A stretch of DNA of 64,000 nt from Chelativorans multitrophicus (GTDB taxonomy: Bacteria; Pseudomonadota; Alphaproteobacteria; Rhizobiales; Rhizobiaceae), in contig NZ_JAAAPL010000002.1 of assembly GCF_011317445.1 (NCBI RefSeq), positions 310,001-374,000 on the forward strand, in the 5' to 3' direction. Below the pieces are notes generated by a model that saw only the letters and a list, made by a program, of their open reading frames with translations, searched no databases and was not told where the DNA came from. A program made the translations under genes and the position numbers. Positions 38,631 through 64,000 of this stretch are shown here, one piece after another; positions within the stretch are counted from its first letter, which is position 1; each line of letters begins with the position of its first letter.

Positions 38631-38669
38631 ATCGTGCCTGGAACCCTGTGCCGGCCGGTCGGACCGAGA

Positions 38670-40190: not shown

Positions 40191-40214
40191 GCGTAATTCC
40201 TCTTCCTATGGCGC

Positions 40215-40228
40215 CCGACGCGCGTCGG
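40215..40228. repeat. Intercistronic GC-rich palindrome CCGACGCGCGTCGG
   Basis: A perfect 14-base palindrome in the 62-base gap between the two binding-protein genes. As RNA it would form a short GC hairpin, which could stabilise the upstream binding-protein mRNA against 3' decay, or attenuate readthrough. There is no following U-run in the leftward direction. Confidence 0.5.
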
Positions 40229-40252
40229 ATCGATGCAGTGAGCAAGGTTCCG

Positions 40253-41773: not shown

Positions 41774-41908
41774 TTTTTATCTCCTCCCATGCGCATCCGG
41801 CCCGGCCGGAGCAAGATCAGCGCCGCGTTTCAAGCGCGGTGCGGGAATGTGGCGATAGGGGGTCGCGCTCCGCGCAAACCGGCTCCTGCACCTCTTCCTT
41901 GGCGACGG

Positions 41909-41937
41909 AACCTAGTCACCCACGCCGCACTCGTCAA
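41909..41937 (-). promoter_or_regulatory. Candidate sigma70 promoter of the transporter operon
   Basis: Read leftward: -35 TTGACG (41932-41937), a 17-base spacer and -10 TAGGTT (41909-41914). It lies about 135 bases upstream of the first binding-protein ATG and directly beside the CTTATC-TATA element at 41940. Confidence 0.5.
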
Positions 41938-41939
41938 CA

Positions 41940-41960
41940 CTTATCATATATCTTTTGCTA
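41940..41960 (+). promoter_or_regulatory. CTTATC-N-TATA element in the divergent promoter region (copy 1)
   Basis: A 21-base AT-rich element starting CTTATCATATAT and ending TTTTGCTA. Close copies stand at 42758 and 42779 before kdgD. It flanks the -35 box of the leftward operon and lies 70 bases before the FadR-type regulator gene, so it is a likely binding site of that regulator. Confidence 0.55.
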
Positions 41961-42028
41961 AAACACGGTTTCTTGTCTGAGGACTCGGTTTGTGCAATTA
42001 TCTTGCGGCACACGTGAAGGAGAGCGCA

Positions 42029-42757
42029 TTGGTGGAAATGGTTCCCGCAGGCCGCCCCAGCGGCAACCTGGTGAAGCATGTCAGCGAGAATCTGCGCAAC
42101 GAGATCGCTTCCGGCCGATTCGAAGTCGGCGACAAGCTGCCGTCGCAATCGCTGCTGACCGAACGCTTCGAGGTAAGCCGCACCGTGATTCGCGAGGCCA
42201 TTGCCAGCCTGCAAGCCGACGGGCTGCTGGAAGCGCGCCAGGGTGCCGGGGTTTTCGTCGTCGCGCGCGCCGCGCCATCGCCCTTTCCATTCCAGACCGT
42301 CGATCACGCGCGGGTTTCCTCGATCCTCGAAATGCTCGAACTGCGTTCGGCGATCGAGATCGAGGCCGCCGGCCTAGCCGCTCTGCGCCGCTCGCCGGCG
42401 CAGGAAGAGGCCATTTTCCGCGCCCATCAGGCCGTTGCGGCGCTGATCGCCAACGGCGAACGCTCCACGGATGCGGACTTCGCCTTCCATCGCGCCATTG
42501 CCGGGGCCACCAATAATCCCCGCTTTACCGAGTTTCTCGACCTCCTGGGCCCCAGCGCCATTCCGCGCGCCAATCTGCAGGTCGATGGCGGCGAAGGTAT
42601 CCGTGCGCCCTATCTCGAGAAGATTCTCGACGAGCATAAACAGATCGCCCAGGCCATTTCATCCGGCGACGAGAAACTGGCGCGCGAGACGATGCGAACT
42701 CATCTAAAGGGCAGTCAGCATCGCTACCGGGCATTAATTCAGAACGACATGGCGTAA
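42029..42757 (+). CDS. FadR-type GntR family transcriptional regulator
   Basis: A regulator of about 242 residues. The winged helix at the N-terminus reads LVKHVSENLRNEIASGRFEVGDKLPSQ... with recognition region TERFEVSRTVIREAIASL; the C-terminal FCD ligand domain follows with its metal-type residues (ELRSAIEIEAAGLAA, ADFAFHRAIAGATNNPRF, DEHKQIAQAI). FCD regulators respond to small carboxylates such as sugar acids. The start is best placed at a TTG (42029): AAGGAGAG is 5 bases upstream; GTG 42032 and ATG 42038 are alternatives. It lies between the two arms of the sugar-acid island and is probably its repressor. Confidence 0.88.
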   Translation: MVEMVPAGRPSGNLVKHVSENLRNEIASGRFEVGDKLPSQSLLTERFEVSRTVIREAIASLQADGLLEARQGAGVFVVARAAPSPFPFQTVDHARVSSILEMLELRSAIEIEAAGLAALRRSPAQEEAIFRAHQAVAALIANGERSTDADFAFHRAIAGATNNPRFTEFLDLLGPSAIPRANLQVDGGEGIRAPYLEKILDEHKQIAQAISSGDEKLARETMRTHLKGSQHRYRALIQNDMA

Positions 42758-44880
<2,123 letters not shown>

Positions 44881-44881
<1 letters not shown>

Positions 44882-45744
44882 TGCTGCACCGCAAACTGAC
44901 CGGCACTCCCCCACATACAGCGCTGCCCAAGGGCGCGGTCGACACTCAGGTACACCTCTACTTGCCTGGCTACCCGGCGGCCCCTGGCGGCAGCCCTATT
45001 CCCGAGGGCACTCCAGGCCCGGCCGAATATCGCCAGGTTATGAGTTGGCTCGGCATAGAGCGCGTCATCGTCACCCAGGGCAACGCGCATCAGCGCGACA
45101 ATGCCAATCTCTTGGCGAGCCTTGCCGCGATGGGCGATATTGCCCGCGGCGTCGCCGTCATCGCCGGCGATACGAGCGACGCTGAATTGCAACGGCTCCA
45201 GGCTGCGGGCGTTGTCGGCGCCCGGATAATGGACTTGCCGGGCGGCGCCATTGGCCTTGCCGATCTCGAAGCCGTCGATGCCCGCGCAGCAGCTTTCGAC
45301 TGGTGCCTGGCAGTGCAGTTCAACGGCTCCAATATCCTCGAGCACAAGACCCGTCTCGCTGCGATTAGCAGCCGCTGGATTTTCGATCACCACGGCAAGT
45401 TCTTCGCCGGCGTGACGCCCAAGGGGCCGGAGATCGATGCCGTTAAGCGATTGATCGATGGCGGCCGCTGCTGGTTCAAATTCGCCGCCTGCTACGAATC
45501 CTCGCGCACCGGCGGTCCGCTTTACGAAGACATCGCGGCAGTCGCCCGTGAGATCGCCGGCTATGCCCCCGAGCGTATCGTCTGGGGCACCAACTGGCCG
45601 CACAACCAGATGCAGACCACCGCATCCTATCCCGATGACGGCGCCTTGCTCGACCGCGTGCTGGGATGGCTGCCGGACGATCGTGCCCGCCAATTGGCCT
45701 TGGTCGACAATCCGGAGCAGCTGTTCCGCCTCCCTTCCGCATGA
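44881..45744 (+). CDS. gli: D-galactarolactone isomerase (Gli), amidohydrolase superfamily
   Basis: A 287-residue TIM-barrel amidohydrolase resembling Gli, which isomerises galactaro-1,5-lactone, the product of uronate dehydrogenase, to the 1,4-lactone. The N-terminal metal-type motif is reduced to VDTQVHLYLPG, the mid barrel carries IFDHHGKF and the C-terminus WGTNWPHNQ with the conserved Asp missing or shifted, as in PMDC-like amidohydrolases. The ATG overlaps the gci stop (TGATG). No uronate dehydrogenase (Udh) was found in the window, so that step must be elsewhere or taken by the Gfo/Idh enzyme. Confidence 0.88.
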
Positions 45745-51530: not shown

Positions 51531-52029
51531 GCGACTACCCGAAATGCTGACCACCACGCGATCACTTATTCTCAGAAGAGAACTGCCGGGGAGAATGGCA
51601 CATCAGCTATGATGCGAGAAATGAACTAGGTCAACAGTATGGCTGCGCCAATAAAGTGGAGGCGCTGGAAAGGAAACTCTTTCAGTTCGGAGTTTAATGG
51701 CCTCACCAATACCGCCTCGCCGCAATGCACGCACCAATGCGCTTCTCGCGGGCACGTCTTATTCGGACAGAAACGGCCAGCATACATGCCACACGCTGCG
51801 GCTTTCAGCTGAAAAAGATGCAATCTCCGCTTCCGGGCGGCCTGGAAGCCAGTGGACCGCTGAGCGCTCGCTGGGGACCTAAATTGACTTGCAGATTGAT
51901 GCCAAGTGATCTTGCGCGATTTGCCAACCGAAATTGTGCGCTGCTTGGGTGGGGCAGGGTGCTTTACGTCCATTCCCGAGCGATGGAACGAGCCGAAGAG
52001 GGTAGCGCGTCACCTAAGCAGCGATCATC
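51531..52029. other. Gene-free stretch upstream of hybrid kinase
   Basis: About 500 bases with no convincing gene. It holds the kinase promoter region and sequence that grades into the decayed recombinase. Several unrelated open frames of 60-130 codons cross it, none with protein-like character. Confidence 0.4.
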
Positions 52030-52410
52030 ACGAAGCATGCGCGGTCCCCCCGCACCACCAATGACGACACTCCCGCCTGTACCCCGCCGGGAGTTTTGTT
52101 TTTCAGCCTTTCTATTGGCTTGCTGATTGGTCCAATCCAAAATGGTGCGCAATTTCGCCGTGCAGCGTGGCGAGAATCGTTCCACGTTTCGATCCCGGCG
52201 TCAGGACGATCTTCTCGATCAACATCCGCAGGGCCTCGCCGCTTACGGCCGCTCGTCCGGCCGAGCGCGCCCGTGTGAACGGCAACCTTCTTCGCATAGA
52301 CGGTGGAAGCGCTCGGCAGCAGGTCAGAGACATCCTCGGGAATGTCAGCGACAAGCTCCGTCAGTTCTTTCTTGCGTGCCTCCAAAAGCAGCCATTGGAC
52401 TGTCGCTCGC
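52030..52410 (-). pseudogene. Frameshifted serine recombinase (large resolvase) C-terminal remnant
   Basis: Three reading frames taken in order give the C-terminal part of a large serine recombinase. The first holds LEARKKELTELVADIPED and LLPSASTVYAKKV; after a shift comes ALRMLIEKIVLTPGSKRG followed by TILATLHGEI; after another shift LRTILDWTNQQANRK and a terminal SVVIGGAGG-like end. These match the usual LxxLIEKIVLTPG...LHGEL...ILDWT pattern. At least two frameshifts and the loss of the catalytic N-terminal domain make it non-functional. It marks an old integration event between the signalling operon and the second catabolic island. Confidence 0.75.
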
Positions 52411-52905
52411 GGGACAGGTCGTTGAGAGATCGTCCCTGGCTGTCTCGCCCTTCGCTTCCCCTGCCTTGTAGGTAGCATGATGCACGCCGTCGGACTTCAG
52501 TATGGACCTAATCTTCGAAAAGATTAAGGGAAGTTCCGCGCGGCACATGCAAAACAACGCATTGGCCAAGGCAGCATGGTACTCGATGCAAGCATTTAAT
52601 TCCTCGAAACACCATAACTTGCACGGGAATCCATAATTATCCTCGGAGCGGCTTGAGTGCCACGGGGATATTTGTGGCTATACGGTTTTCCTGCGAGCTG
52701 CCGCCCTCGACCGTCATGTTCGGAAATCATGATGGTGAAGGTCGAAGGTCACGCCGCGGGTAAGTTAGTGCGCACTAGGCGGCTTTCCGAAAGTCATGGC
52801 AATCCACACGACACATGGGATACTTGGACCTTGTGGTGGAGCTAGCCACGGAAAGCCTGACGCAGTTCGGCCACAGGTTCGGGGCGCCGTCCCCGATCCA
52901 TTCAG
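52411..52905. other. Decayed sequence between recombinase remnant and MaoC gene
   Basis: About 495 bases without an intact gene. A leftward 26-codon fragment from 52717 (including IATNIPVALKPLRG) recalls the small proteins often found beside such recombinases, but it is too short to call. No flanking repeat or tRNA was recognised. Confidence 0.35.
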
Positions 52906-53346
52906 CTATAATCGGCGCTGGCGAGATTGCACGAAGAGGACGGCTTCTCCCGAAAGTACAATGGTGCCGCAACATGTACATGTGGTATCCAGGTAAACGC
53001 GATTGCGCTCGGGCTCGAGCCTCGTGATGCAGACTTGAGCCTTCACCGCGGATCTCGGCGTCACCGGCGCGCGAAACTCGAGTGTCTGTTTGATGTAGAC
53101 ATTGCCTGGCCCGGGGAGGCGGGTGCCCAGCACGGAGGACACGATACCGGCAGTCAGCATTCCGTGTGCAATCCTGCCGCCAAAACGTGTTTGTCGTGCC
53201 CATTCCTCGTTCATATGGATCGGATTGAAGTCGCCCACGGCGGTTGCAAACATCTCTATGTCGTCGGTCGTGATCGTCCTTTCGATGCTTGCTGACATGC
53301 CAACAGTCAGGTCTTCGAAATAAAAGCCCTCGGAAACAGTGCTCAT
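52906..53346 (-). CDS. MaoC family (R)-specific enoyl-CoA hydratase-like protein
   Basis: A 146-residue single hotdog domain. The hydratase-2 motif DFNPIHMNEEWA, with catalytic Asp and His, is followed by RIAHGMLTAGIVSSVLGTRLPG, as in PhaJ/MaoC hydratases. It should hydrate a 2-enoyl-CoA to an (R)-3-hydroxyacyl-CoA. Its start overlaps the thioesterase stop by 4 bases, so the two leftward genes are coupled. They are divergent from the crotonase-led operon and share its promoter region. Confidence 0.88.
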   Translation of the reverse strand: MSTVSEGFYFEDLTVGMSASIERTITTDDIEMFATAVGDFNPIHMNEEWARQTRFGGRIAHGMLTAGIVSSVLGTRLPGPGNVYIKQTLEFRAPVTPRSAVKAQVCITRLEPERNRVYLDTTCTCCGTIVLSGEAVLFVQSRQRRL

Positions 53347-53780
53347 CGTATGAATTCTCCATCGAAATCCGGGGTGTCTGCAAGAAGCCGCTCCAGCCGA
53401 TACCTGACATCTTGAGGAATTGGTGCCGGCTTATCGGCCGCGTAGTCTATATGCACATATGTGCAGCGCCCAACAGAACAGACGGATCCATTCTGAATGA
53501 TCACTTCATTGACCTGGAAACTCGTTCGCCCGATGGCACGGATCCATGTCAAAACACTAACTTCTGAAGCCAAATAGATCTGGCGCTTGTAACGTATCTC
53601 CATCGATATCAGAGCTACCGCCCAACGATCAAACGACAATTCGGGTGTAATGGCGCGAAAGATCTCTCGCCGGCCGGCTTCGAACCATATTGCAGAAGTG
53701 ACATTGTTGATGTGTCCTGCCCCGTCTGTCTCCGATACCCGAGGGACGATTTCTGTTCTTATGGCCTGGTCAGGTATCAC
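53343..53780 (-). CDS. Acyl-CoA thioesterase of the 4HBT hotdog family
   Basis: A 145-residue 4-hydroxybenzoyl-CoA thioesterase-type protein with the motif VSETDGAGHINNVTSAIWFE, where the Asp and the GHINN segment are catalytic, and the second strand region ISMEIRYKRQIYLASEVSVL. It would hydrolyse a CoA ester. It is first of the leftward pair with MaoC and is divergent from the crotonase gene, suggesting the two arms serve one CoA-ester pathway. Confidence 0.86.
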   Translation of the reverse strand: MIPDQAIRTEIVPRVSETDGAGHINNVTSAIWFEAGRREIFRAITPELSFDRWAVALISMEIRYKRQIYLASEVSVLTWIRAIGRTSFQVNEVIIQNGSVCSVGRCTYVHIDYAADKPAPIPQDVRYRLERLLADTPDFDGEFIR

Positions 53781-53797
53781 CGCATCCCCTTTCAGTG

Positions 53798-53903
53798 TTA
53801 TGCATACGATTGCATTTCATTGCCGTCGATTCTCCCTTAGCAGGCCAATGCTCGCGAGAAAACCCCATAAACCTCAAAGTATGGTGCTTGCATCCGTATG
53901 CAT
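53798..53903. promoter_or_regulatory. Inverted pair of TGCAnnCGTATGCAT sites in the divergent promoter
   Basis: Site 1 (minus strand of 53801-53815) reads TGCAATCGTATGCAT and site 2 (53889-53903, plus strand) TGCATCCGTATGCAT; 13 of 15 bases agree and each is itself a near-palindrome with TGCA and TGCA ends. They are about 88 bases apart, facing outward toward the thioesterase and crotonase starts. This is the layout of paired operators for one regulator controlling both arms; no regulator gene is next to them in the window. Confidence 0.6.
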
Positions 53904-53955
53904 TATGTGCAAAGACTAGCCTCACCGCGTTCGACCAACAAGGGAGGAACCTCGA

Positions 53956-54771
53956 TTGTCGTACGAATTGATCAAGGTCGATGTGCAGGCCGGAATTGGT
54001 TATCTGACCTGGAACCGGCCGCGAGTTCATAACGCGATCTCGCCTGAAGTGATGACCGAGACGATGGATGCACTGTCAGTGCTGGGTGAACGGGACGATG
54101 TTCGCGTCATCATTTTGTCAGGTGAAGGTAAATCATTCAGTTCCGGTTGCGATATAAGTGTTAAGGCGGACAGGGGGACGGAAGGCATCGACGAGTGGCG
54201 CATACGCTATCAGAAGAGTCTGCAGTTCATGCTCAGTTTTTGGCGGTGTCCCAAGCCGATCATTGCCTCGATTCATGGCTATTGTCTGGCTGGCGGCTTT
54301 GAAGCGAGCCTTGCCTGCGACATCTCCGTAGCCGCTGAAAGTGCGCGCTTTGGCATGCCGGAAGCTAAGATGGGCTCACCGAGCATTTTGCTGATGTTGC
54401 CGTGGCTTGCTGGGCCCAAAATGGCGAAAGAGATTTTGATATGCGCTGAGGATACCTTCTCCGCGGCCCGCGCGAAGGAAGCGGGTATCGTCAATCACGT
54501 CGTTCCGGATGAAGAGCGAGAAAGTTTTGTCCGAGAGATTGCAAATCATATTGTCGGATCATCGCCCGTAGCCGTTGCCTATTTTAAGCGCGCGATCAAT
54601 CAGACCTTTGAAATTATGGGCTTGATGCCCGCGCTGGAGGCCAACGTCGAGGCTGCCGCAAGCATGAAGGGCATTGTTGACAAAGACCGAGATGAGTTTT
54701 TGCTTATCAGGAAGGAGCAGGGGCTCAAGGCAGCCGTCGCCTGGCGTGCCCAGCGGGTTGGTGCGCAATGA
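53956..54771 (+). CDS. Enoyl-CoA hydratase/isomerase (crotonase) family protein
   Basis: A 271-residue crotonase-fold enzyme. The oxyanion-hole segments are FSSGCDISV and CLAGGFEASLACDISVAAE; the catalytic Glu position is in RFGMPEAKMGSPS. It is the first gene of the rightward operon and starts on TTG (53956) with GGAGG 8 bases upstream. It may hydrate, isomerise or retro-aldol-cleave a CoA thioester made by the downstream CoA ligase. It overlaps the permease gene by 4 bases (ATGA). Confidence 0.86.
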   Translation: MSYELIKVDVQAGIGYLTWNRPRVHNAISPEVMTETMDALSVLGERDDVRVIILSGEGKSFSSGCDISVKADRGTEGIDEWRIRYQKSLQFMLSFWRCPKPIIASIHGYCLAGGFEASLACDISVAAESARFGMPEAKMGSPSILLMLPWLAGPKMAKEILICAEDTFSAARAKEAGIVNHVVPDEERESFVREIANHIVGSSPVAVAYFKRAINQTFEIMGLMPALEANVEAAASMKGIVDKDRDEFLLIRKEQGLKAAVAWRAQRVGAQ

Positions 54772-56588
54772 GCGTTGCTCGCTCGCAGGGGGGGCTAGTT
54801 GCAGGAGTGGGGCGTGGCGAACAGTTGAACCTACGTTCATTTCGCAATCGCCCGGCCCTCTCTCTGCTTCCGCTTGTTCCCGCCTGGGTATTTCTGCTCC
54901 TCTTCTTTGCGCTGCCGCTGATCTTCGTTACCGGCGCCAGCATCTTCGATGAGAGTGGAGCGCTTTCGCTGCAGAACTTTGTCCGGCTTGTGGAAACGCC
55001 GGTCTATTGGCGCATTCTCCTCAACACTCTGGACATTGCGTTCTGGACGGCCTGTATCACGGTCGTAGTCGGTTATCCGCTGGCGCGCATGCTGGCTTCC
55101 GGGGAGCGCAGTGGCACCAGTTTTTTGATGATCGCCATCATGGTTCCGCTCTGGACCAGCTTTCTCGTTCGCGCGCTGGCCTGGATGCTGGTCTTGTCCA
55201 GATATGGTGTCATCAACAGCACGATGCTGTCTCTCGGTTTGCTCGATACGCCGGCGCGGCTGGTTAATAATTACCCAGCGGTGCTGCTGGCGATGGTGCA
55301 CGGCATGCTGCCCCTGGCCGTGCTGACGATGTATTCGGTTATGCAGAACATCGACCCGGCCCTGTCTCGGGCAGCTTCGACGCTTGGTGCCCGCTCTGGC
55401 AATGCGTTCTGGCGAGTCTACTTCCCTCTGTCGCTGCCAGGGGTGGCTTCAGCTTGGCTCGTCGTCTTCGTTTCTGCACTCGGAACCTTCATCGTGCCGG
55501 TCCTGCTTGGTAGTCCGCGTGAAATGATGATCGCCGGCTCCATCGTCGAGCAGATCAACAATAACTTTAATTGGGGCTTTGCGGGCGCCCTGACAGTGAT
55601 GCTGTTAGGGGCAACCCTCCTCGTTTATCTCGTTTTTGAAAGAACCCTAGGTAGCTCAGTTTTATCAGGCGGCGCCGTGAGTGCGGCAACGGGCAGCGGT
55701 CGCAGTGGACGCATCCAGCAAAGGATCAGGCCGCTTGGTGGTCGTATTCTCGCCTTTGTTGGCGCAGTGACGGTCCATTTCGAGAAGATCCTCGATTCGA
55801 TATTGGGTCAGCGACAGGCCGGAAGCGGCTTACTCCTGAAAATCACGGCCTGGCTGCTGGTCGCCTTCCTGATCCTGCCAGTCGTCTTCGTGATCCCGGT
55901 TTCTTTCTCGGAAGATCGCTTCTTCAGTTGGCCGCCAGTCGGATTCACGACGGAATGGTTTGCAACGTATTTCACCTCGACGGTGTGGATGCAAGCAACT
56001 CTCAATTCCGTGCTGTTCGCTTTTGTCTCGGCTATCGCATCGATGGTGATTGGTATTCCTGCCGCGTTGGTGCTGGCACGTAGAAGCGTACCAATGCGGG
56101 CGCTGCTGATGATGCTGGTTCTGATGCCGATCGTGCTGCCGAATGTTATCGTGGCAGTCGGGCTGTTCTATATCTTTGCCTATGTAAACATGGTGGGAAC
56201 CATTTGGGCGATCATCATCGGCCATACAGTTCTCAATCTTCCCTATGTGATCATCACTGTCATGGCGGTGCTCAAGAACTATGACGTCCGTCTAGATCAC
56301 GCCAGCTGGACCCTCGGCGCTGGAAAGCTGCAAACCTTCCGCTTGGTGACGATGCCAATCTTGAGAGCAGGCATCACAGCAGCGTTCCTCTTTGCCTTCG
56401 TACGCTCCTTTGACGATCTCTCGATTGTTCTCTTTCTCGGAGCAGGACAGCTTAGCACGCTACCTTTGCAGCTATGGTCTACTGCCCTGGTCGGTATTGA
56501 TTCAACCCTCGCGGCAGTATCGACGGTCATTTTCGGGGCTGTTTGCATTGTAGTGATTGTGGCAATCCGCATCGGATCAAAAAAATAG
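54768..56588 (+). CDS. Fused two-domain ABC transporter permease (PotB-PotC type)
   Basis: A 606-residue permease in which both permease subunits of a polyamine/opine-class importer are fused. Domain 1 (about 30-295) has the EAA-type loop ASTLGARSGNAFWRVYFPLSLPG; a charged linker (about 296-350) with repeats of Gly/Ser/Arg follows; domain 2 (about 355-600) has LDHASWTLGAGKLQTFRLVTMPI. About six helices lie in each half. Usually the two are separate genes (PotB, PotC). Coupled by ATGA to the crotonase gene. Confidence 0.9.
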   Translation: MSVARSQGGLVAGVGRGEQLNLRSFRNRPALSLLPLVPAWVFLLLFFALPLIFVTGASIFDESGALSLQNFVRLVETPVYWRILLNTLDIAFWTACITVVVGYPLARMLASGERSGTSFLMIAIMVPLWTSFLVRALAWMLVLSRYGVINSTMLSLGLLDTPARLVNNYPAVLLAMVHGMLPLAVLTMYSVMQNIDPALSRAASTLGARSGNAFWRVYFPLSLPGVASAWLVVFVSALGTFIVPVLLGSPREMMIAGSIVEQINNNFNWGFAGALTVMLLGATLLVYLVFERTLGSSVLSGGAVSAATGSGRSGRIQQRIRPLGGRILAFVGAVTVHFEKILDSILGQRQAGSGLLLKITAWLLVAFLILPVVFVIPVSFSEDRFFSWPPVGFTTEWFATYFTSTVWMQATLNSVLFAFVSAIASMVIGIPAALVLARRSVPMRALLMMLVLMPIVLPNVIVAVGLFYIFAYVNMVGTIWAIIIGHTVLNLPYVIITVMAVLKNYDVRLDHASWTLGAGKLQTFRLVTMPILRAGITAAFLFAFVRSFDDLSIVLFLGAGQLSTLPLQLWSTALVGIDSTLAAVSTVIFGAVCIVVIVAIRIGSKK

Positions 56589-56630
56589 CCTGAACGGCTA
56601 ATATGGTTTCTTTAGTGTGGAGGAGAAAAC

Positions 56631-57710
56631 ATGAAGACGATTGAACTATCACGAAGGAATGCTTTGAAGGTGATCGCAGGATCGAGTGCTTTATTAGCCG
56701 CGCCGGCGATACTCTCACGTTCTTATGCGCAAGAAGGCGGCTTTTCCGTCGGTATTCCCGGAGGTTACGAGAAGGCTTTCCAGACTGCGTTCCTCGACCC
56801 CTATGAGCAGGAATTCGGGATTAAGCCGACGCCCATCCTCGCTGGCACCTCGACCGTCGAGATCAAGGCCCAAGTCGAGACGGGCAAGTTCTTCTATGAT
56901 GTCCGCTTTAGCGTGGCGGCGACCGGTAACGAGGTTCTTGCCGAGGCCGGTCTGCTCGAGCGGATAGACGACATCGATTCGGAAGATGTCCAGGCAATCT
57001 ATGGTGCCTTGCCGGAAGCACAGCGTAGGCCGACCTTCCTTCCCCACGGCTTGTCGGCACAGGTCATTGCTTTCCAGGACCATCTGGATTTCAAGGACTA
57101 TGCCGATATTTGGGACGTCGAGAACCTCCCCGGTGCGCGGGCTCTGCGGGGTCAAGGTAAGGATACTATCGAAGCCGCACTGCGTTCCATGGGTAAGCGG
57201 CCGAGCGAGACTGCCTCATTCCTCGCGAACGAGGATGGGTGGAAGCAGGTATTTGCTCGGCTGGACGAGATAAAGGACCACGTGACCAACTGGTGGGAGG
57301 AGGATTCCGACATCACCCGGCTGCTTGGCGCGCGCGAAGTTGATGTAACTGCTTTCCCGCATCACCGAGCAATGGCCGCCGTCCAAAGCGGTGCCAGGAT
57401 CAAGTACAACTATAGCCAGAGCATGACGACCGCGCTTGGCTGGGTGATCCCAAAGAACAGCCCACAGGCCGAGGCGGGACGCAAATTCATCGCATTCTGT
57501 TCGCGCCCCGACCGTATTGCCGACTTCACAATGGACGTGCCGATGGGGCCGATGCACCCCGATGTCATGGCCCTGCTGGATCCGGCTTTTGCGGTAGCTC
57601 TGCCCACCCACCCCAACAACGTCGAAAACATTGAATCCGAGGATGTGGCATTCTGGCACAAGAATCAGGGCCAAGCCAACGAGCGCTTTAAGGAGTGGTT
57701 ACTCGGATAG
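56631..57710 (+). CDS. ABC transporter extracellular solute-binding protein (PotD-like)
   Basis: A 359-residue periplasmic binding protein with an N-terminal twin-arginine-like signal (SRRNALKVIAGSSALLAAPAILSRSYA). The mature part shows the SBP_bac_8/PotD-type fold (FSVGIPGGYEKAFQ, TPILAGTSTVEIKAQVE, LPGARALRGQG). Polyamine, opine or similar amino-compound ligands are typical of this class. It belongs with the fused permease upstream and the ATPase downstream. GGAGGAG precedes the ATG. Confidence 0.88.
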   Translation: MKTIELSRRNALKVIAGSSALLAAPAILSRSYAQEGGFSVGIPGGYEKAFQTAFLDPYEQEFGIKPTPILAGTSTVEIKAQVETGKFFYDVRFSVAATGNEVLAEAGLLERIDDIDSEDVQAIYGALPEAQRRPTFLPHGLSAQVIAFQDHLDFKDYADIWDVENLPGARALRGQGKDTIEAALRSMGKRPSETASFLANEDGWKQVFARLDEIKDHVTNWWEEDSDITRLLGAREVDVTAFPHHRAMAAVQSGARIKYNYSQSMTTALGWVIPKNSPQAEAGRKFIAFCSRPDRIADFTMDVPMGPMHPDVMALLDPAFAVALPTHPNNVENIESEDVAFWHKNQGQANERFKEWLLG

Positions 57711-57855
57711 CACAGGTCTGTCCGAAGCGGCATGCGGCCAGGTCGCCGTATGCCGCCTCAGGACCCGCGACTGACAGACCGTCGCGACGCGATGCGCCGC
57801 GGAAGCTCCCGCAACTTCGGAGCGCTCATAGCGCGAGCCGGTAAGGAATTTTCGA

Positions 57856-58929
57856 ATGGATTTAAAGCTAAAGATCGAGGGAGTGAGAAAATCCTACGGG
57901 TCTGTCAGGGCCCTGAACCCCATCTCAGTGGATGTGCCGGCGGGAGAATTTCTGACGCTGCTCGGTCCGTCTGGGTCGGGTAAGACTACTTTGTTGCAGA
58001 TCTTGTCCGGGCTCGTAGTACCGGATGATGGCGCCATTTGGATTGACGAGAAGCTCGCGACCCATCTGCCGCCCTCTCAGCGCGATATCGGCATGGTATT
58101 CCAAAACTATGCCCTGTTCCCTCATATGACGGTCGCTGAAAACATTGCCTTTCCGCTCCAGATGCGCGGCATGAAGAGCGCTGACATCGCGCCGAAGGTG
58201 CGTAGAATTCTAGAAATCGTTCAACTGCCGCACATGGCCGATCGGTTTCCGAGAGAGCTTTCTGGCGGGCAACAACAGCGTGTAGCGTTGGCTCGCTGCG
58301 CTGTCTACGAACCGCCAATCATACTCATGGACGAGCCCCTGGGCGCTCTCGATAAGAATCTGAGAGACCAAATGCAACTAGAAATAATCCACCTGCACAA
58401 GGCGCTGTCGACCACCATTCTCTACGTCACCCATGACCAGGAGGAGGCGATGGCCATGTCCGACCGCATTTGCCTGATGAAGGATGGGCAAATCGAACAG
58501 ATCGGCACGCCACGTGATCTCTACCGTGCCCCGCGAACGGAATTCGTCGCCAATTTCTTCGGTCGATCGAACGTCTTCAAGTGCACCGTTAAGAACCGGT
58601 TTGAAAACACAGTGCTGCTGGATGCGCCCATCGGACCGATGATTGCTACGAACAGCTCAAGGGAAGAGGAGGCCAGGAAGGGGCAAGACGTATCTGTCGT
58701 CGTCAGGCCGGAAGATGTCCGCTTCCTGAAAGACAACGAAAGCGCTGACAATGAGATCGTTGTCAATCTCAGGCAGAGGGTGATGACAGGGGCGACTACA
58801 CGATATCTGGCGGAAAGCAAGGACAATACACCGATAGAGATATTGTCTTTCAGCTCGACAGGGACCTTAACCGTCGGTGACGAGTGCCGGGTAGGATGGT
58901 CCAAGGAGAACGTTACCATCGTCCGCTGA
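57856..58929 (+). CDS. ABC transporter ATP-binding protein (PotA-like)
   Basis: A 357-residue ATPase with Walker A GPSGSGKTTLLQ, Q-loop QNYALFPHMTV, signature LSGGQQQRVALARC, Walker B ILMDEPLGALD and switch His in YVTHDQ, followed by a C-terminal TOBE domain. It is of the spermidine/putrescine and opine group. It completes a full importer with the preceding two genes, after a 145-base gap without another gene. Confidence 0.93.
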   Translation: MDLKLKIEGVRKSYGSVRALNPISVDVPAGEFLTLLGPSGSGKTTLLQILSGLVVPDDGAIWIDEKLATHLPPSQRDIGMVFQNYALFPHMTVAENIAFPLQMRGMKSADIAPKVRRILEIVQLPHMADRFPRELSGGQQQRVALARCAVYEPPIILMDEPLGALDKNLRDQMQLEIIHLHKALSTTILYVTHDQEEAMAMSDRICLMKDGQIEQIGTPRDLYRAPRTEFVANFFGRSNVFKCTVKNRFENTVLLDAPIGPMIATNSSREEEARKGQDVSVVVRPEDVRFLKDNESADNEIVVNLRQRVMTGATTRYLAESKDNTPIEILSFSSTGTLTVGDECRVGWSKENVTIVR

Positions 58930-58990
58930 GCGCCCGAGTATCGGCAAAGCACTTCACAAACTGAAAATAGCGCCGTTAGAAGGAATAGAT

Positions 58991-61045
58991 ATGTTTAGCA
59001 GTATGTCGAAGCTCTTTTCTCCTAAGAGCGTGGCCGTTATCGGGGCGAGTGAAAGGGCAGGGAACCTGGGGGGCAGGTTGGTTACGGCTCTAAAGAAAGG
59101 TGGATATCAGGGCGAAATCTATGCAGTTCATCCAACCGCGAGGGAAGTCTTTGGAGTACCCGCCTTTCCGCGTATCCGTGATATCGGGAGGACTGTTGAC
59201 TTTGCCGCCTTATCCGTACCGGATAGCCAACTGCTGAACGCTTTCGGCGAGGCTATAGAAGCAGGCGTGAAAGGCTTTCAAATCCCGAACCGTGGATATG
59301 ATGAGGAACGCAAGTCACTGACCTATATTCCTGACACTCTGCGGGAGATGGGCCTTGCAGCCGGCGTCGCGGTATGCGGGCACAACTGCATGGGGTTCAT
59401 GAATGTGCGCGACAGCGTGCGAATGACGCATAACCCACCTCCGGGGCTGGATCTTACACCGGGGGGTGTATGCATCATTTCTCATAGCGGTTCGAGCTGG
59501 TCGGGCATCACCGGCAGCCAGCGCGACCTTGCGCTGGAAATCGCGGTCTCGGCAGGCGCGGAGGTCGTCTCCGGCTTTCCTGAATATATTGAATATTTCC
59601 TCTCTTTGCCGACGACGCGCGTGATCGGGCTGGTTTTCGAGACAATACGGCGCCCTGAAGAATTCCTCGCCGCCGTTGGGCATGCATTTCAGAAAGGCAT
59701 TCCGGTAGTGCTGCTGGCGCTGGGCTCCACCGATATAGGCGCGAAGTTTACCGAGGCCCATTCGGGAGGGCTATCGAGCCCGCGCCAGGTCCTGGATGCA
59801 ATCGGCCGCAAATACGGGGTCATCGTCACAAAGACGCTTGATGAGCTCCTAGATTGTATCGAAGCCTTTCGCACTGAGCGGATTCCCACGGCTCTCGGCG
59901 CCGGCGTCATCAGCGATTCCGGCGGGGAGCGGCAGCTCATTGCCGATGTGTCGAGCTGGACGAATTTGAAACTAGCCGCCTATGAGGACAAGACCAACGA
60001 GCGCCTGACCGAAATTCTGGAAGACGATGTCGTGATCGGCAATCCGCTCGATTCCATGGGGGACGCGCCCATGGCAAATTCCGGAATCGCCATTTCAAAG
60101 GACCCCTCGGTTGGCGCCGTCGTCATCGGCAACAATCTGGTCGATGGCCGTCAATTCATGATCGATGTCTCGAATTCGACAACAAAAATCCACGAGAATA
60201 CCGAGAAGCCGGTCTTCATCTTCGGCAATATCAGTACCTCGGTTTCGCGCCCCGGCGCGCGTAATCTGCGAATGAAGGGCATCCCAGTCCTTATGGGAAC
60301 CGAATCCGCTTGTTACGCCATCGGGTCGTTCCTGGCATGGCACGAGAAGCGTCGAAAGCTGGCTGAGACGGCGGAGAAAACTGCCGGGGAGACCAGGCAC
60401 ACCAAAGTGTTGCCGAGGCTGCCGGATGGCTTCACGCAGGGCAAGAGCTATGCGCTACTTGCCGAATGCCGCCTGCCAATGGCGCCCATTCTAGAATCGG
60501 GCAATCTCCAGGATACGCTGAAAAACGCCCAGACGCTCGGCTATCCTGTGGTGTTGAAGACCGCGAATGCGAATATCGCGCATAAGTCGGATGTCGGAGG
60601 AGTTGTCCTAGGTATTCGCGGCGAAGAGGAACTCACCAGGCATTATATGGAAGTCGCTGAACGGTGTGGGCCACAGGTGTCCCTGCAGCCAGCTCTGTCA
60701 GCCGATTATGAATTGATCGTCGGTATGCATCGCGACCCGCGTTTTGGACCAATCATCACGCTGGGCTTGGGTGGTGTGTTTACTGAAATCCTGCGCGACA
60801 GCGTCAATCTCTTGCCGCCGGTCGCTTATGAAGAGTTCGAAGAGAGCCTTGAGGCCTTGCGCGCCGCACCCGTCCTGCGCGGCGCCAGGGGGCAGAAGGG
60901 GATTTCTCTTCCCGATCTTTATGACGTGGTTCTCAAGATTTCCGAGCTTGCGATCCAGAATCCCCGGATCACCGGCATTGACCTCAATCCAATCATGGTG
61001 CGGCACGGAAAGCTGAACATTGTCGATGCGCTGATCACGGTCTGA
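58991..61045 (+). CDS. ADP-forming acyl-CoA synthetase (acetate-CoA ligase family)
   Basis: A 684-residue NDP-forming acyl-CoA synthetase with CoA-binding (VAVIGASERAGNLGG), ligase CoA and ATP-grasp domains in order. The phosphate-carrying His is at residue 257 in TEAHSGGLSS, the position equivalent to the known alpha His of the family; the ATP-grasp part starts near 470 (FTQGKSYALLAECRLPMAP). Such enzymes activate carboxylic acids, including aromatic acids (for example FerA-type feruloyl-CoA synthetases), at the cost of ATP to ADP. It follows the transporter and precedes the oxidase genes in the same direction. Confidence 0.9.
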   Translation: MFSSMSKLFSPKSVAVIGASERAGNLGGRLVTALKKGGYQGEIYAVHPTAREVFGVPAFPRIRDIGRTVDFAALSVPDSQLLNAFGEAIEAGVKGFQIPNRGYDEERKSLTYIPDTLREMGLAAGVAVCGHNCMGFMNVRDSVRMTHNPPPGLDLTPGGVCIISHSGSSWSGITGSQRDLALEIAVSAGAEVVSGFPEYIEYFLSLPTTRVIGLVFETIRRPEEFLAAVGHAFQKGIPVVLLALGSTDIGAKFTEAHSGGLSSPRQVLDAIGRKYGVIVTKTLDELLDCIEAFRTERIPTALGAGVISDSGGERQLIADVSSWTNLKLAAYEDKTNERLTEILEDDVVIGNPLDSMGDAPMANSGIAISKDPSVGAVVIGNNLVDGRQFMIDVSNSTTKIHENTEKPVFIFGNISTSVSRPGARNLRMKGIPVLMGTESACYAIGSFLAWHEKRRKLAETAEKTAGETRHTKVLPRLPDGFTQGKSYALLAECRLPMAPILESGNLQDTLKNAQTLGYPVVLKTANANIAHKSDVGGVVLGIRGEEELTRHYMEVAERCGPQVSLQPALSADYELIVGMHRDPRFGPIITLGLGGVFTEILRDSVNLLPPVAYEEFEESLEALRAAPVLRGARGQKGISLPDLYDVVLKISELAIQNPRITGIDLNPIMVRHGKLNIVDALITV

Positions 61046-61121
61046 AATCGCACCGGTGGGGGGCATTCGTCTCCCACCCAGCAATTCTGCGAGCGGCGTT
61101 ATTGCGAAAGAAGGCAAGCAA

Positions 61122-62231
61122 ATGCACGGCGAATTCGGCTACGCGGTGATCGGGGGCGGCCTGGTGGGCGCCTCACTCGCCTATGGCTTGGCAAAGCAGG
61201 GACAGAAGGTTGTGATGTTAGATGAGGCCGATATTGCCCGCCGGGCCTCTCGCGGCAACTTCGCCCTGGTCTGGGTGCAAGGAAAGGGTGCCGCGTTCCC
61301 AGTTTATTCGGACTGGACCATATCCTCGGCTTTGGCGTGGAGTGGATTTGCCGATGAGCTCGAAGAATTGACCGGCATTCGCCTTTATCACCGGCGTCCG
61401 GGCGGCTTTGTCCTTTGCCTGAGCGAGGACGAGCTAGCCTTTCGCGCGGAGGAGCTCGGGAAGCTCAAAGCCTATAATGCTGGCTATCCCTTCGAAATCC
61501 TCAGCCGTGAGGAGCTTGTGAACCTTCTGCCCCAGATTGGGCCAGAGGTGGTCGGCGCCTCCTATTGCGCTCTCGACGGCGACGTCAATTCCCTCATGCT
61601 GCTGCGCAGCCTGCATACGGCGTTCGCCTTGGTTGGCGGAACCTCTCTTCCGGGCAGCAAGGTGGTGGATATACAGTGCAACAGCAATGTCTACCGCCTC
61701 AGTACCCTGACGGGCAAAGTGTATGCCAACCGGATTATCCTTGCGGCCGGACTGGGCAATAGAGAACTCGGCAGCATGGTGGGGTTCGATGTTCCGGTCC
61801 GGGCGCAACGGGGCGAGATCATGGTGACGGAGAAGATTGCGTCGTTTCTTCATTACCCAATGCATGTCATTCGGCAGACAAATGAGGGCGGTGTGATGAT
61901 CGGCGACAGTCATGAAGAGGCCGAGGATTATAATTCGGTCAGCATTCCCATCCAGTCCGGTATGGCGAGCCGCGCGGTTCGGATGTTTCCATGCTTGGAG
62001 CCTTTAAACGTTGTGCGCATGTGGTCAGCCTTGCGGGTCCTTAGTTGTGACGGTTATCCGATCTACGCCCATTCAAACACGCACCCGGGAGCGTATCTAG
62101 TAACATGCCACAGCGGCGTGACGCTGGCAGCCGCACACGCACATCGATTGGCGCCATCCATCCATTCCGGGTCCTGGGATCCAATTATCAGTTCCTTCGG
62201 ATTGGAGCGTTTTCATGCTGAGGCGGCTTGA
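61122..62231 (+). CDS. FAD-dependent oxidase, beta (DAO-type) subunit of a three-subunit amine oxidase
   Basis: A protein of about 369 residues of the D-amino acid oxidase fold. The FAD motif is VIGGGLVGASLAYGLAKQGQKVVMLDE; GDVNSLMLLRSL and the C-terminal GAYLVTCHSGVTLAAAHA are typical of HcnC/OoxB/LhpB-like subunits. It should oxidise a C-N bond of an imino or opine compound. ATG at 61122 chosen over the frame start at 61056 because of AAGAAGG upstream. It overlaps the (2Fe-2S) subunit gene by 17 bases. Confidence 0.9.
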   Translation: MHGEFGYAVIGGGLVGASLAYGLAKQGQKVVMLDEADIARRASRGNFALVWVQGKGAAFPVYSDWTISSALAWSGFADELEELTGIRLYHRRPGGFVLCLSEDELAFRAEELGKLKAYNAGYPFEILSREELVNLLPQIGPEVVGASYCALDGDVNSLMLLRSLHTAFALVGGTSLPGSKVVDIQCNSNVYRLSTLTGKVYANRIILAAGLGNRELGSMVGFDVPVRAQRGEIMVTEKIASFLHYPMHVIRQTNEGGVMIGDSHEEAEDYNSVSIPIQSGMASRAVRMFPCLEPLNVVRMWSALRVLSCDGYPIYAHSNTHPGAYLVTCHSGVTLAAAHAHRLAPSIHSGSWDPIISSFGLERFHAEAA

Positions 62232-62514
62232 CGATTTCTCGACCCAAACGGTCCGCATCAGCATCGATGACCGGACAGTCGAGGTTCAGGTCGGTGACTC
62301 TGTCGCGGCGGCTCTGCTTCTCTCTGGCGTGACCACGACTAGGACCACCGTCGTTTCTGGCGCGCCGCGTGCGCCTTATTGCATGATGGGCGTGTGCTTT
62401 GAATGTCTCGTGACAATTGACGGGGTGGCCAACCGACAGGCCTGCATGGTCAAAGTGGAAAAGGGTATGAACGTTCGAACCCAAATCGACCGGCATCCGG
62501 GGAGGACGACCTAG
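62215..62514 (+). CDS. (2Fe-2S)-binding small subunit (HcnA-like)
   Basis: A 99-residue ferredoxin-like subunit. Four cysteines at residues 56, 61, 64 and 77 (C-x4-C-x2-C-x12-C) hold the 2Fe-2S cluster, in the segment PYCMMGVCFECLVTIDG. It is the gamma subunit between the FAD subunits in HcnABC/OoxAB-like complexes. Overlaps the beta-subunit gene by 17 bases and the alpha-subunit start (GTG 62514) by 1 base (TAGTG), so the three are co-translated. Confidence 0.93.
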   Translation: MLRRLDDFSTQTVRISIDDRTVEVQVGDSVAAALLLSGVTTTRTTVVSGAPRAPYCMMGVCFECLVTIDGVANRQACMVKVEKGMNVRTQIDRHPGRTT

Positions 62515-63947
62515 TGATCAGCTTGCAGTCCTTAATGAATCTCGACGATCGTTATGAGCTGATCGTGATCGGTGCCGGGCCAGCCGGAATGGCTGCGGCG
62601 ATAGAGGCGACGCGGAATGGCGTCAAGACGCTGGTTTTAGACGAGAATGGCGCGATTGGAGGGCAGATTTACCGCTCGATCACCACCGCGACACCGAAGC
62701 GCCTAGCAGTTCTCGGAAAGGACTATGCAGGGGGCGCAGAGCTCGCCCGGACCTTTACTGAATCGGGTGCTGCTTACCTGGCAAAAGCTACCGTCTGGCG
62801 GCTGACTGCCGACCGCGAACTTGGAGTTTCGCATGATGGCATGGCCAAGCTGATAACGGGAGAGCGGGTCCTGGTGGCCACTGGTGCCCTGGAGCGGCCA
62901 TTTCCAATTGCTGGATGGACATTGCCCGGCGTCATGACCGCCGGCGCTGCGCAGATACTGCTCAAGGCGAGTGGCGCCGTTATGGGGCCAAAGATGGTTC
63001 TGGCAGGAAGTGGTCCGCTTCTCTGGTTGCTAGCCAGCCAGTATCTTGCTGCCGATGTTCCCCTTCTCGCTATCCTTGACACGACTCCCCGGAAAAATGT
63101 CCTTAGAGCCATTCCGCATCTGCCTGGTTTCATGGCCTCGCCTTATTTCAGAAAGGGCTTAGGCTTGGTCACTAAGGTCCGGCGGGCCGTACGAGTCTAC
63201 AAGAATGTCGATAAACTGAGAGCAGAAGGGAGCGAACGGGTCGAGCGCGTGCGGTTTAGCGCTTCCGGGAAAGAGCACTCTTTGGAACTCGATCACCTCC
63301 TGCTGCATCATGGAGTCGTGCCCGAGATGAACCTTCTTCGTTCCGTTGGCTGCGAAATGGCGTGGGACGAGGAGCAGATATGCTGGCATCCGATCGCCAG
63401 TGCTGGCGGCGAGACATCTATTCCCGGGATCTATGTCGCTGGCGACGGACGGGCGATCTACGGCGCTGAACTGGCGCGATTTGGCGGAAGACGTGCCGCT
63501 CTGGAGATCTCGAAGTCCCTGGGAGCAATCGACGGCGCGGCCTTCGAGCATCTTTGCGCCCAGCTTGAGCAGGAGAGCCGGCCCTTTATCCGGGGGCGTT
63601 TTTTCCTCGACCGGATGTTCAGACCGCGACGAGAGCATCTCACACCTGCCCACGATGCCCTTGTATGTCGTTGCGAGGAAGTCTTGGGCTCGACCCTCCA
63701 CGATACAATTTTCCGTCTGAAAGTTCTCGGCCCCAATCAGCTAAAGGCCTTTCTGCGGAGTGGAATGGGCCCATGCCAAGGACGTCAATGCAGCCTAAGC
63801 GTCACGCAAACGATAGCAAAATTGCGCGGTGTTTCACCCGAAGATGTTGGCGCCTATCGTATCCGGCCACCTGTCAAGCCCATCACTGTTGGGCAGATAG
63901 CCAATTTGCAAACGAGGCACAAACGCGGCCTTGAGTGTCTCCAATGA
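62514..63947 (+). CDS. FAD/NAD(P)-binding oxidoreductase, alpha subunit with BFD-like Fe-S domain
   Basis: A 477-residue pyridine nucleotide-disulfide oxidoreductase-type subunit (HcnB/OoxA/LhpF-like). An N-terminal FAD motif reads VIGAGPAGMAAAIEATRNG, and a second GSGPLLWLLASQ lies near residue 163. The C-terminal domain has CRCEEV and GPCQGRQCS, a C-x-C...C-x4-C arrangement of a bacterioferritin-associated ferredoxin-type 2Fe-2S site. GTG at 62514 is the likely start; ATG at 62535 is possible. Last complete gene of the window. Confidence 0.92.
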   Translation: MISLQSLMNLDDRYELIVIGAGPAGMAAAIEATRNGVKTLVLDENGAIGGQIYRSITTATPKRLAVLGKDYAGGAELARTFTESGAAYLAKATVWRLTADRELGVSHDGMAKLITGERVLVATGALERPFPIAGWTLPGVMTAGAAQILLKASGAVMGPKMVLAGSGPLLWLLASQYLAADVPLLAILDTTPRKNVLRAIPHLPGFMASPYFRKGLGLVTKVRRAVRVYKNVDKLRAEGSERVERVRFSASGKEHSLELDHLLLHHGVVPEMNLLRSVGCEMAWDEEQICWHPIASAGGETSIPGIYVAGDGRAIYGAELARFGGRRAALEISKSLGAIDGAAFEHLCAQLEQESRPFIRGRFFLDRMFRPRREHLTPAHDALVCRCEEVLGSTLHDTIFRLKVLGPNQLKAFLRSGMGPCQGRQCSLSVTQTIAKLRGVSPEDVGAYRIRPPVKPITVGQIANLQTRHKRGLECLQ

Positions 63948-63970
63948 AAAGTATCAGGAAAGGAAATACG

Positions 63971-64000
63971 TTGATCAATAGACGATACAGAACGCCCATT
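63971..64000 (+). CDS. Possible next gene start (cut by window edge)
   Basis: A TTG at 63971 with AGGAAAGGAAA about 5 bases upstream opens a frame of ten codons (first residues (M)INRRYRTPI) to the right edge. It may be the next gene of the operon. Nothing else can be said. Confidence 0.3.
   Translation, partial: MINRRYRTPI

Follow-up and report, generated by a model that had tools for sequence, protein, structure and literature searches.

The window analysed here, a 64,000-nucleotide stretch of a Chelativorans multitrophicus contig (NZ_JAAAPL010000002.1, positions 310,001 to 374,000), carries at its right-hand end a cluster of catabolic genes that sets an opine-type amine-oxidizing enzyme and an ATP-binding cassette (ABC) importer among enzymes of coenzyme A (CoA) ester chemistry. 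The cluster extends past the window end at 64000 into the neighbouring part of that contig (L002; adding 61999 to an L002 coordinate gives the window coordinate), where three further genes on the same strand encode RidA, a regulator of the LacI family and a HisD-like dehydrogenase. The complete unit of 13 genes is a divergent pair, with maoC-4hbt running leftward and ech-potBC-potD-potA-acd-beta-gamma-alpha-ridA-lacI-hdh running rightward. A preliminary description of the window had named leftward MaoC and 4HBT genes and rightward crotonase, importer, synthetase and oxidase genes, and all ten window genes were confirmed, at the coordinates and on the strands given below, by the open reading frame (ORF) list, Pfam and NCBIfam. 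Each of the ten proteins scores above at least one Pfam curated cut-off and the motifs sought are present, which argues that these genes are not chance ORFs. The tight packing claimed for the cluster is real at the MaoC/4HBT and crotonase/permease junctions (overlaps of 4 bases each), at beta/gamma (17 bases) and at gamma/alpha (1 base), and alpha overlaps the listed RidA start by 13 bases; the remaining junctions are gapped, by as much as the 145 bases that separate PotD from PotA.

The CoA-ester enzymes are found on both sides of the divergent promoter. The leftward arm encodes a MaoC-type (R)-enoyl-CoA hydratase (52906..53346, minus strand; PF01575, 80 bits), whose best solved relative is the (R)-specific enoyl-CoA hydratase 5cpg and whose D-x4-H sequence (DFNPIH) we take to be the motif of hydratase 2, and a 4HBT/hot-dog acyl-CoA thioesterase (53343..53780, minus strand; PF13279, 56 bits), closest among solved structures to the putative 4-hydroxybenzoyl-CoA thioesterase 2oiw (141 bits). 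The rightward arm begins with a crotonase-type enoyl-CoA hydratase (53956..54771, plus strand; PF00378, 160 bits; best solved relative 4k29), in which both catalytic Glu positions, by reference to rat ECH, appear to be retained. Farther along lies acd (58991..61045, plus strand), an alpha-beta fusion with CoA-binding (CoA_binding_2), Succ_CoA_lig and ATP-grasp (ATP-grasp_5) domains and the phosphohistidine loop TEAHSGGL, features that place it in the ADP-forming acyl-CoA synthetase superfamily. Its best solved relatives are the 4-hydroxybutyrate-CoA ligase 8wzu (216 bits) and then DddX (7cm9, 195 bits), and the four NCBIfam models that it matches all score far below their cut-offs.

DddX is an ADP-forming-type dimethylsulfoniopropionate (DMSP) lyase for which PMC8163506 gives Trp391, Phe435 and Glu432 as key residues. 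The window synthetase shares with it the superfamily and the phosphohistidine (aligned with DddX His292), and Phe435 is retained as Phe, but Trp391 is replaced by Met and Glu432 lies opposite Gln in a gapped stretch that was counted by hand. A role as DMSP lyase was rejected on these grounds, which also speak against the hint of DMSP in the preliminary description.

Relatives of the synthetase were sought in six overlapping draws of 297, 397, 385, 35, 10 and 398 genomes under strict cut-offs; in each genome no more than a few top candidates were scored, so that absence of a relative is not proof. Identities above 50% were found only in the genome itself, in G051 (probably the same as Aminobacter sp. 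AP02, since the coordinates of the two loci are identical) and in G016, a genome of the same family. Twelve loci were compared, namely that of G016 and eleven more distant ones, and six of the latter (L008, L018-L022) pair the synthetase with a crotonase, at 37-39% and 40-45% identity respectively. PotABCD-type genes lie near three of these six pairs, as complete sets in L019 and L022, which also have a DAO-type match, and as PotD- and PotA-type matches only in L021. A less similar synthetase-crotonase pair (30 and 35%) sits on a Caballeronia plasmid beside a gene annotated as an MDR family oxidoreductase.

The importer was originally described as PotABCD-type. PotA and PotD are indeed present, but PotB and PotC are two permease halves of one protein. 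The fused permease (54768..56588, plus strand) has two BPD_transp_1 stretches, is PotB-like over 41-290 and PotC-like over 359-603, and falls below the equivalog cut-offs for PotB and PotC in the respective halves. It is followed by a PotD-type solute-binding protein of the SBP_bac_8 family (56631..57710, plus strand), with 4i1d, the agropine permease 6hly and MotA 5l9g as solved relatives, and by the PotA-type ATPase (57856..58929, plus strand), which passes TIGR01187 with 361 bits (cut-off 355.6). The nearest plasmid relative of this importer, in Aminobacter aminovorans, is accompanied by RidA, an FAD oxidoreductase and the bhcABCD glyoxylate genes. Relatives in Ensifer, Shinella, Variovorax and Paracoccus all four lie with FAD oxidoreductase, dapA-like and alpha-hydroxy acid oxidase genes; at the Bradyrhizobium guangxiense locus the FAD oxidoreductases are further away.

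The oxidase consists of three subunits. Beta (61056..62231, plus strand, with a possible ATG start at 61122) is an FAD protein of the DAO superfamily (PF01266); gamma (62215..62514, plus strand; PF13510) is a 2Fe-2S ferredoxin with a C-x4-C-x2-C-x12-C motif; and alpha (62514..63947, plus strand; Pyr_redox_2, SO_alpha_A3) combines GxGxxG with C-x-C...C-x4-C and is 47% identical to OoxA. RidA, a predicted imine deaminase (63935-64315, L002:1936-2316, plus strand; PF01042, 63 bits), crosses the window end and is 49% identical to the RidA that adjoins ooxA in the Ti plasmid (pTi). According to PMC4575208, three-subunit enzymes of this type are dehydrogenases for nopaline or octopine, and type 1 heteromeric opine dehydrogenases (OpnDH) are marked by GxGxxG, 2Fe-2S, Arg-X-Trp and C-X-C-X15~20-C-X4-C motifs. 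The window enzyme has the beta-gamma-alpha order, GxGxxG in alpha and beta, the 2Fe-2S motif in gamma and Arg-X-Trp in beta (RMW at 321). Alpha has all four cysteines, with a middle spacing of 33 that, like the 27 of OoxA, lies outside the printed range.

In a phylogenetic tree, the beta subunit falls in an eight-row clade with OoxB (support 100/99, with a warning from the tool of long branches nearby); the tree was built without the characterised NoxB and OdhB and with two added genome rows, one of which (G803) falls among second-type subunits. Beta shares 53% identity with an Azospirillum subunit and 45% with OoxB of the Ti plasmid, and the opine-type label first given to the oxidase is thus upheld. 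The same source (PMC4575208) reports that beta subunits of such enzymes have been exchanged. With OoxBA/NoxBA and with OdhBCA of P. putida and B. japonicum, the window cluster shares the beta-gamma-alpha order, the cofactor motifs and an adjoining ABC importer, and with the pTi locus it also shares the neighbouring RidA. Unlike those systems, it adds a CoA synthetase, a crotonase, MaoC, a thioesterase, a HisD-like enzyme, LacI and an importer with fused permease. The cluster is, in this respect, a variant of opine-type catabolic operons. The genome holds a second OpnDH-type beta-gamma-alpha set with a RidA of its own about 94 kb rightward (G000:C8:466612-467961, L049), with 46% identity in alpha.

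The last gene of the unit, hdh (65463-66788, L002:3464-4789, plus strand; PF00815), encodes a protein that passes the NCBIfam hisD model TIGR00069 with 433 bits (cut-off 243.8) and matches HpsN structures (367 bits) better than HisD structures (247 bits). Its neighbourhood in the window and adjoining stretch contains no further recognised his gene. HpsN, the dihydroxypropanesulfonate (DHPS) 3-dehydrogenase, has a 122-126 motif in which His126 marks DHPS dehydrogenases, as set out in PMC11382572. The window protein shares the HisD fold family, and HpsN Glu318, His319, Asp352 and Lys353 align with identical residues (a one-residue offset of the HpsN chain numbering also fits the first three); the signature histidine is missing, since its position is occupied by Leu (GKYPL versus GRYAH), and assignment as an HpsN-type DHPS dehydrogenase was rejected. 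The corresponding motif is GKYPL in 11 of the 12 subfamily members checked and GKYPM in the other, from Mesorhizobium ciceri, with His in none of them. The protein is taken here as representing a separate subfamily that is common on plasmids, where a search at E 1e-80 gave 188 records, including 122 with 60-80% identity. Its plasmid neighbours vary and include sugar importers and SDR, GMC and thiamine pyrophosphate (TPP) enzymes; at one Caballeronia locus a thiolase, an acyl-CoA dehydrogenase and a thioesterase lie alongside. Judging from its family, the enzyme would oxidize an alcohol to an acid in a four-electron reaction.

The LacI-family regulator (64334-65377, L002:2335-3378, plus strand; PF00356, PF13377) most likely acts at the divergent promoter. 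Alignment of this region from three genomes (Chelativorans, Aminobacter and G016) revealed two conserved palindromic sites. The stronger, TGCATCCGTATGCA at 53889..53902 (no strand), is the predicted operator, and the pattern TGCATNCGNATGCA that describes it has this single exact site in the 4.82-Mb genome, read on both strands of the one palindrome, and none with the reversed-pattern control. The weaker copy, TGCATACGATTGCA at 53801..53814 (no strand), has one mismatch, as does its counterpart in Aminobacter and in G016. The operator site at the divergent promoter is conserved in both of those genomes. The pattern was also looked for in nine plasmid loci carrying an HisD-like gene. It was found upstream of that gene in four of the five with an annotated LacI nearby (Roseomonas haemaphysalidis, Salmonella, Klebsiella michiganensis and Roseomonas OT10, with Mesorhizobium ciceri as the locus in which no exact site was found) and in none of the four without an annotated LacI; it is absent from 1.635 Mb of other loci examined, some of them overlapping. 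The LacI proteins from three of the five LacI-linked loci are 40-41% identical to that of the window. Because the exact site is located at the divergent promoter and is conserved near LacI-linked HisD-like genes, LacI most likely controls the CoA-gene promoter and, by way of the rightward operon, the oxidase genes as well.

Generic scans contributed little to this picture. A scan for 18-bp palindromes missed the operator, which became visible only in the three-genome promoter alignment, and a consensus promoter scan of 52700-64000 gave 5 promoter-like sites against 5.5 expected. Terminator-like sites in the same region numbered 15 against 9.5 expected (standard deviation 3.0), an uninformative result; some of them lie inside the operon on the plus strand, so that read-through is assumed.

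The closest counterpart of the cluster is in Aminobacter sp. AP02, where all 13 genes recur in unchanged order at 71-93% identity. A scan of contigs with exact short peptides found one locus. Comparison of the cluster genes with those of AP02 gave Ka/Ks values of 0.014-0.15 in the 12 genes with unsaturated Ks, which indicates purifying selection. The G016 locus keeps the HisD-like enzyme, LacI, MaoC, 4HBT, synthetase and crotonase at 50-72% identity. Its PotABCD importer comes from a different lineage (26-41%), and next to the HisD-like gene lies one for a monomeric oxidase of the DAO family; a second LacI, 77% identical to that of the window, lies near the contig end. The AP02 cluster is followed (L003:14121-17685) by a TPP enzyme related to acetolactate synthases and a transporter-like protein, which matched no NCBIfam model and which, from reading its sequence, we presume to belong to the MFS family. 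TPP enzymes also adjoin the HisD-like gene on Rhizobium, Thalassospira and Paracoccus plasmids.

More distant genomes contain similar functional sets. Contig 21 of G901, a 70% complete genome of the same class, carries on 19 kb the alpha, gamma and beta subunits, a crotonase, PotD-PotA-PotBC and an ADP-forming synthetase, differing from the window in its extra DAO and DapA-like genes and in the 25-54% identity of its proteins; HisD-like, LacI, MaoC and 4HBT relatives were not found on that contig. Plasmids of Bosea, Salipiger, Sagittula and Chelatococcus carry a three-subunit oxidase with an IclR regulator, a crotonase, PotD, PotA and a fused PotBC of the same importer family (39-45% in the permease). 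Their oxidase genes run gamma-alpha-beta. These clusters differ in a beta subunit of another clade, in having IclR instead of LacI and in an AMP-forming instead of an ADP-forming ligase, and no MaoC, 4HBT or HisD-like relative was found in the stretches examined. In Azospirillum TSH58 the same set occurs without an oxidase within the stretch examined. The order oxidase gamma-alpha-beta, IclR, crotonase, PotD-PotA-PotBC, AMP-forming ligase is conserved across the plasmid loci L076, L081, L083 and L085, and in the first three the ligase is followed by a protein of about 360 amino acids, which in Bosea (L076) has no Pfam or NCBIfam match.

A survey of 397 genomes drawn from the order (the window's own genome excluded) located the fused permease at 19 places in 16 genomes, which were compared with 19 control stretches from eight of the 16. 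A crotonase lay near 13 of the 19 permeases and in one control stretch (p = 0.0001), an AMP-forming ligase near 11 and in one (p = 0.001), and oxidase alpha plus gamma near five and in none (p = 0.046). Within the stretches examined, none of the 19 permeases had RidA or an HisD-like gene close by.

Several features indicate that the segment is accessory. The GC content of the 13 genes is 0.51-0.59, as compared to 0.60-0.66 in the six flanking genes measured, and the cluster is bracketed by a 66-bp direct repeat (51950..52015, plus strand; 67787-67852, L002:5788-5853) that has only these two copies in the genome, identical at 64 of 66 bases. Beyond the right copy lies a tRNA-Glu gene (L002:5922-5997, from window position 67921, minus strand), from which the conserved backbone extends to the right in four genomes of the same genus. 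On the other side of tRNA-Glu, 9-13 kb in these four genomes gave a single distant match (35%) to the ORFs located at 28000-67900 in window coordinates. A search of the 80-kb stretch for att-like copies of the tRNA-Glu end gave none exceeding 12 bases, and the roughly 1.1 kb between the HisD-like gene and tRNA-Glu holds no Pfam-supported gene (one ORF tested). The 13-gene block was apparently acquired as one piece.

The best explanation of the locus, held with moderate confidence, is that it encodes a single LacI-controlled, horizontally acquired pathway in which an imported opine-like amine undergoes CoA-linked processing. The importer (PotA, PotD and fused PotBC) would bring an opine-like compound into the cell, meaning an amino acid or amino alcohol bearing an N-carboxyalkyl group. 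The beta-gamma-alpha flavin/2Fe-2S dehydrogenase would then oxidize its C-N bond and hand the electrons to an acceptor, for instance the respiratory chain; the resulting imine would be hydrolysed by RidA to a 2-oxo acid and an amine. One of the fragments may carry a primary alcohol (or aldehyde) that the HisD-like enzyme would oxidize to a carboxylate, from which the ADP-forming synthetase could form a CoA ester. Crotonase and MaoC would hydrate or dehydrate this ester, and the 4HBT enzyme might free the acid or rescue CoA. LacI would hold the divergent 4HBT/crotonase promoter until an inducer arrives. The substrate class, the direction and order of the steps, co-transcription and LacI binding are all inferred in this scheme. 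A single pathway had been proposed from the outset, and it is the likelier reading. Both arms, amine oxidation and CoA chemistry, occur together in Aminobacter AP02, in G901 and, with an AMP-forming ligase and non-orthologous parts, on four plasmids. Homologous clusters thus do not always lack one arm, with the qualification that outside Aminobacter the two arms co-occur only as functional equivalents.

Some evidence weighs against this single-pathway explanation, and part of it would fit the view that two independent units lie side by side in one accessory island. One would be a CoA-ester pathway that comprises MaoC, 4HBT, crotonase, importer, synthetase, HisD-like enzyme and LacI, the other an opine dehydrogenase with RidA that was inserted into the operon and acts on another substrate. 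The oxidase genes diverge faster, being 71-79% identical to their AP02 counterparts when most others are 78-93% identical. The G016 locus has the CoA core and no three-subunit oxidase (its contig stops 294 bases past the last gene), and the three-subunit oxidase of that genome (OoxB clade, 38-43%) is on another contig without CoA genes. OpnDH plus RidA also forms a self-standing module in other loci, and nine other oxidase loci (L040, L047-L054) contain no synthetase or crotonase relative at E 1e-10; similarly, the annotation of five OoxB-type loci lists neither a CoA ligase nor a crotonase. Two separate units nevertheless seem rather unlikely. The oxidase genes sit, with overlaps, between the synthetase gene and those for RidA, LacI and the HisD-like enzyme, and the genome has a single exact operator site; furthermore, both Aminobacter and G016 have some amine oxidase beside these genes, and the combination recurs in G901 and the four plasmids.

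Other observations are also unfavourable to the single-pathway explanation. Sites with up to two mismatches to the operator are not enriched in the window (4 found versus 4.6 expected from shuffles), so the operator argument rests on the exact site and its conservation. Bosea-type clusters contain components that are not orthologous to those of the window (beta 23-26%, crotonase 28%, alpha 34%, and a ligase of another superfamily), and their substrate may therefore differ. In the survey, any DAO protein was near eight of the 19 permeases and three of the 19 controls, a difference that is not significant (p = 0.15); six of the 19 importer loci lack a crotonase; and no ADP-forming synthetase was near any of the 19 within the 12-19 kb examined, the synthetase of G350 lying about 12 kb from its permease and beyond the stretch examined. 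The survey queries included the Bosea cluster, itself found through the same importer, and the ligase count leans on that preselected family. Finally, the Microvirga relative of the importer (L080, unannotated) has no partner genes nearby.

Could the cluster simply be an ordinary octopine/nopaline-type opine operon, in which the CoA genes merely process a common downstream acid? The grouping of beta with OoxB, the adjoining RidA as in pTi and the kinship of the binding protein to agropine and MotA binding proteins would all agree with this. The ornithine cyclodeaminase of the occ region was not seen among the 13 genes, and the OoxB-type loci without an annotated CoA ligase count against it as well, which makes this explanation improbable. 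A sulfonate (DHPS-like) or DMSP-like pathway, with the HisD-like protein as HpsN, the synthetase as DddX and the crotonase as AcuH, would accord with the structural matches to HpsN (best) and DddX (second best) but is exceedingly improbable given the replacements at HpsN His126 and DddX Trp391 and Glu432.

Consistent with the statement in the preliminary description that no known pathway has this exact set, none was found in listings of open-licence papers judged by title and opening of the abstract, and no paper on the LacI/HisD-like regulon was found there either. The cluster is possibly one member of an undescribed class. More tentatively, and with rather less confidence than is given to the single pathway itself, a widespread and previously undescribed class of pathways can be suggested for the CoA-linked breakdown of imported opine-like secondary amines. 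Such pathways would have been put together on at least two occasions, around one importer family, from oxidases, crotonases and ligases that are not orthologous (the ligases being ADP-forming in the window and G901 and AMP-forming in the Bosea-type clusters), together with an HisD-like subfamily controlled by a LacI repressor with a conserved operator of its own. The cluster turns a group of orphan enzymes into a testable unit, with a regulator whose operator is predicted and an importer whose binding protein can be screened, and the enzyme combination recurs in several Alphaproteobacteria. Solving the pathway would assign a function to an HisD-like subfamily whose members range from Rhizobium plasmids to those of Salmonella, and would reveal the link between amine oxidation and CoA chemistry in the turnover of carbon and nitrogen in soil.

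Two other parts of the window deserve mention. Overlapping ORFs fill 51558-52906, between a histidine kinase gene and maoC; two of them were tested and had no Pfam match. Those at 52.0-52.5 kb look by eye like a decayed site-specific recombinase, an assumption of ours to which Pfam lent no support. A second catabolic block, of higher GC, lies at 37713-45744, and from reading its translations we take it to encode two near-duplicate dipeptide-type binding proteins, a GntR regulator and DapA-like, enolase-type and amidohydrolase-type proteins.

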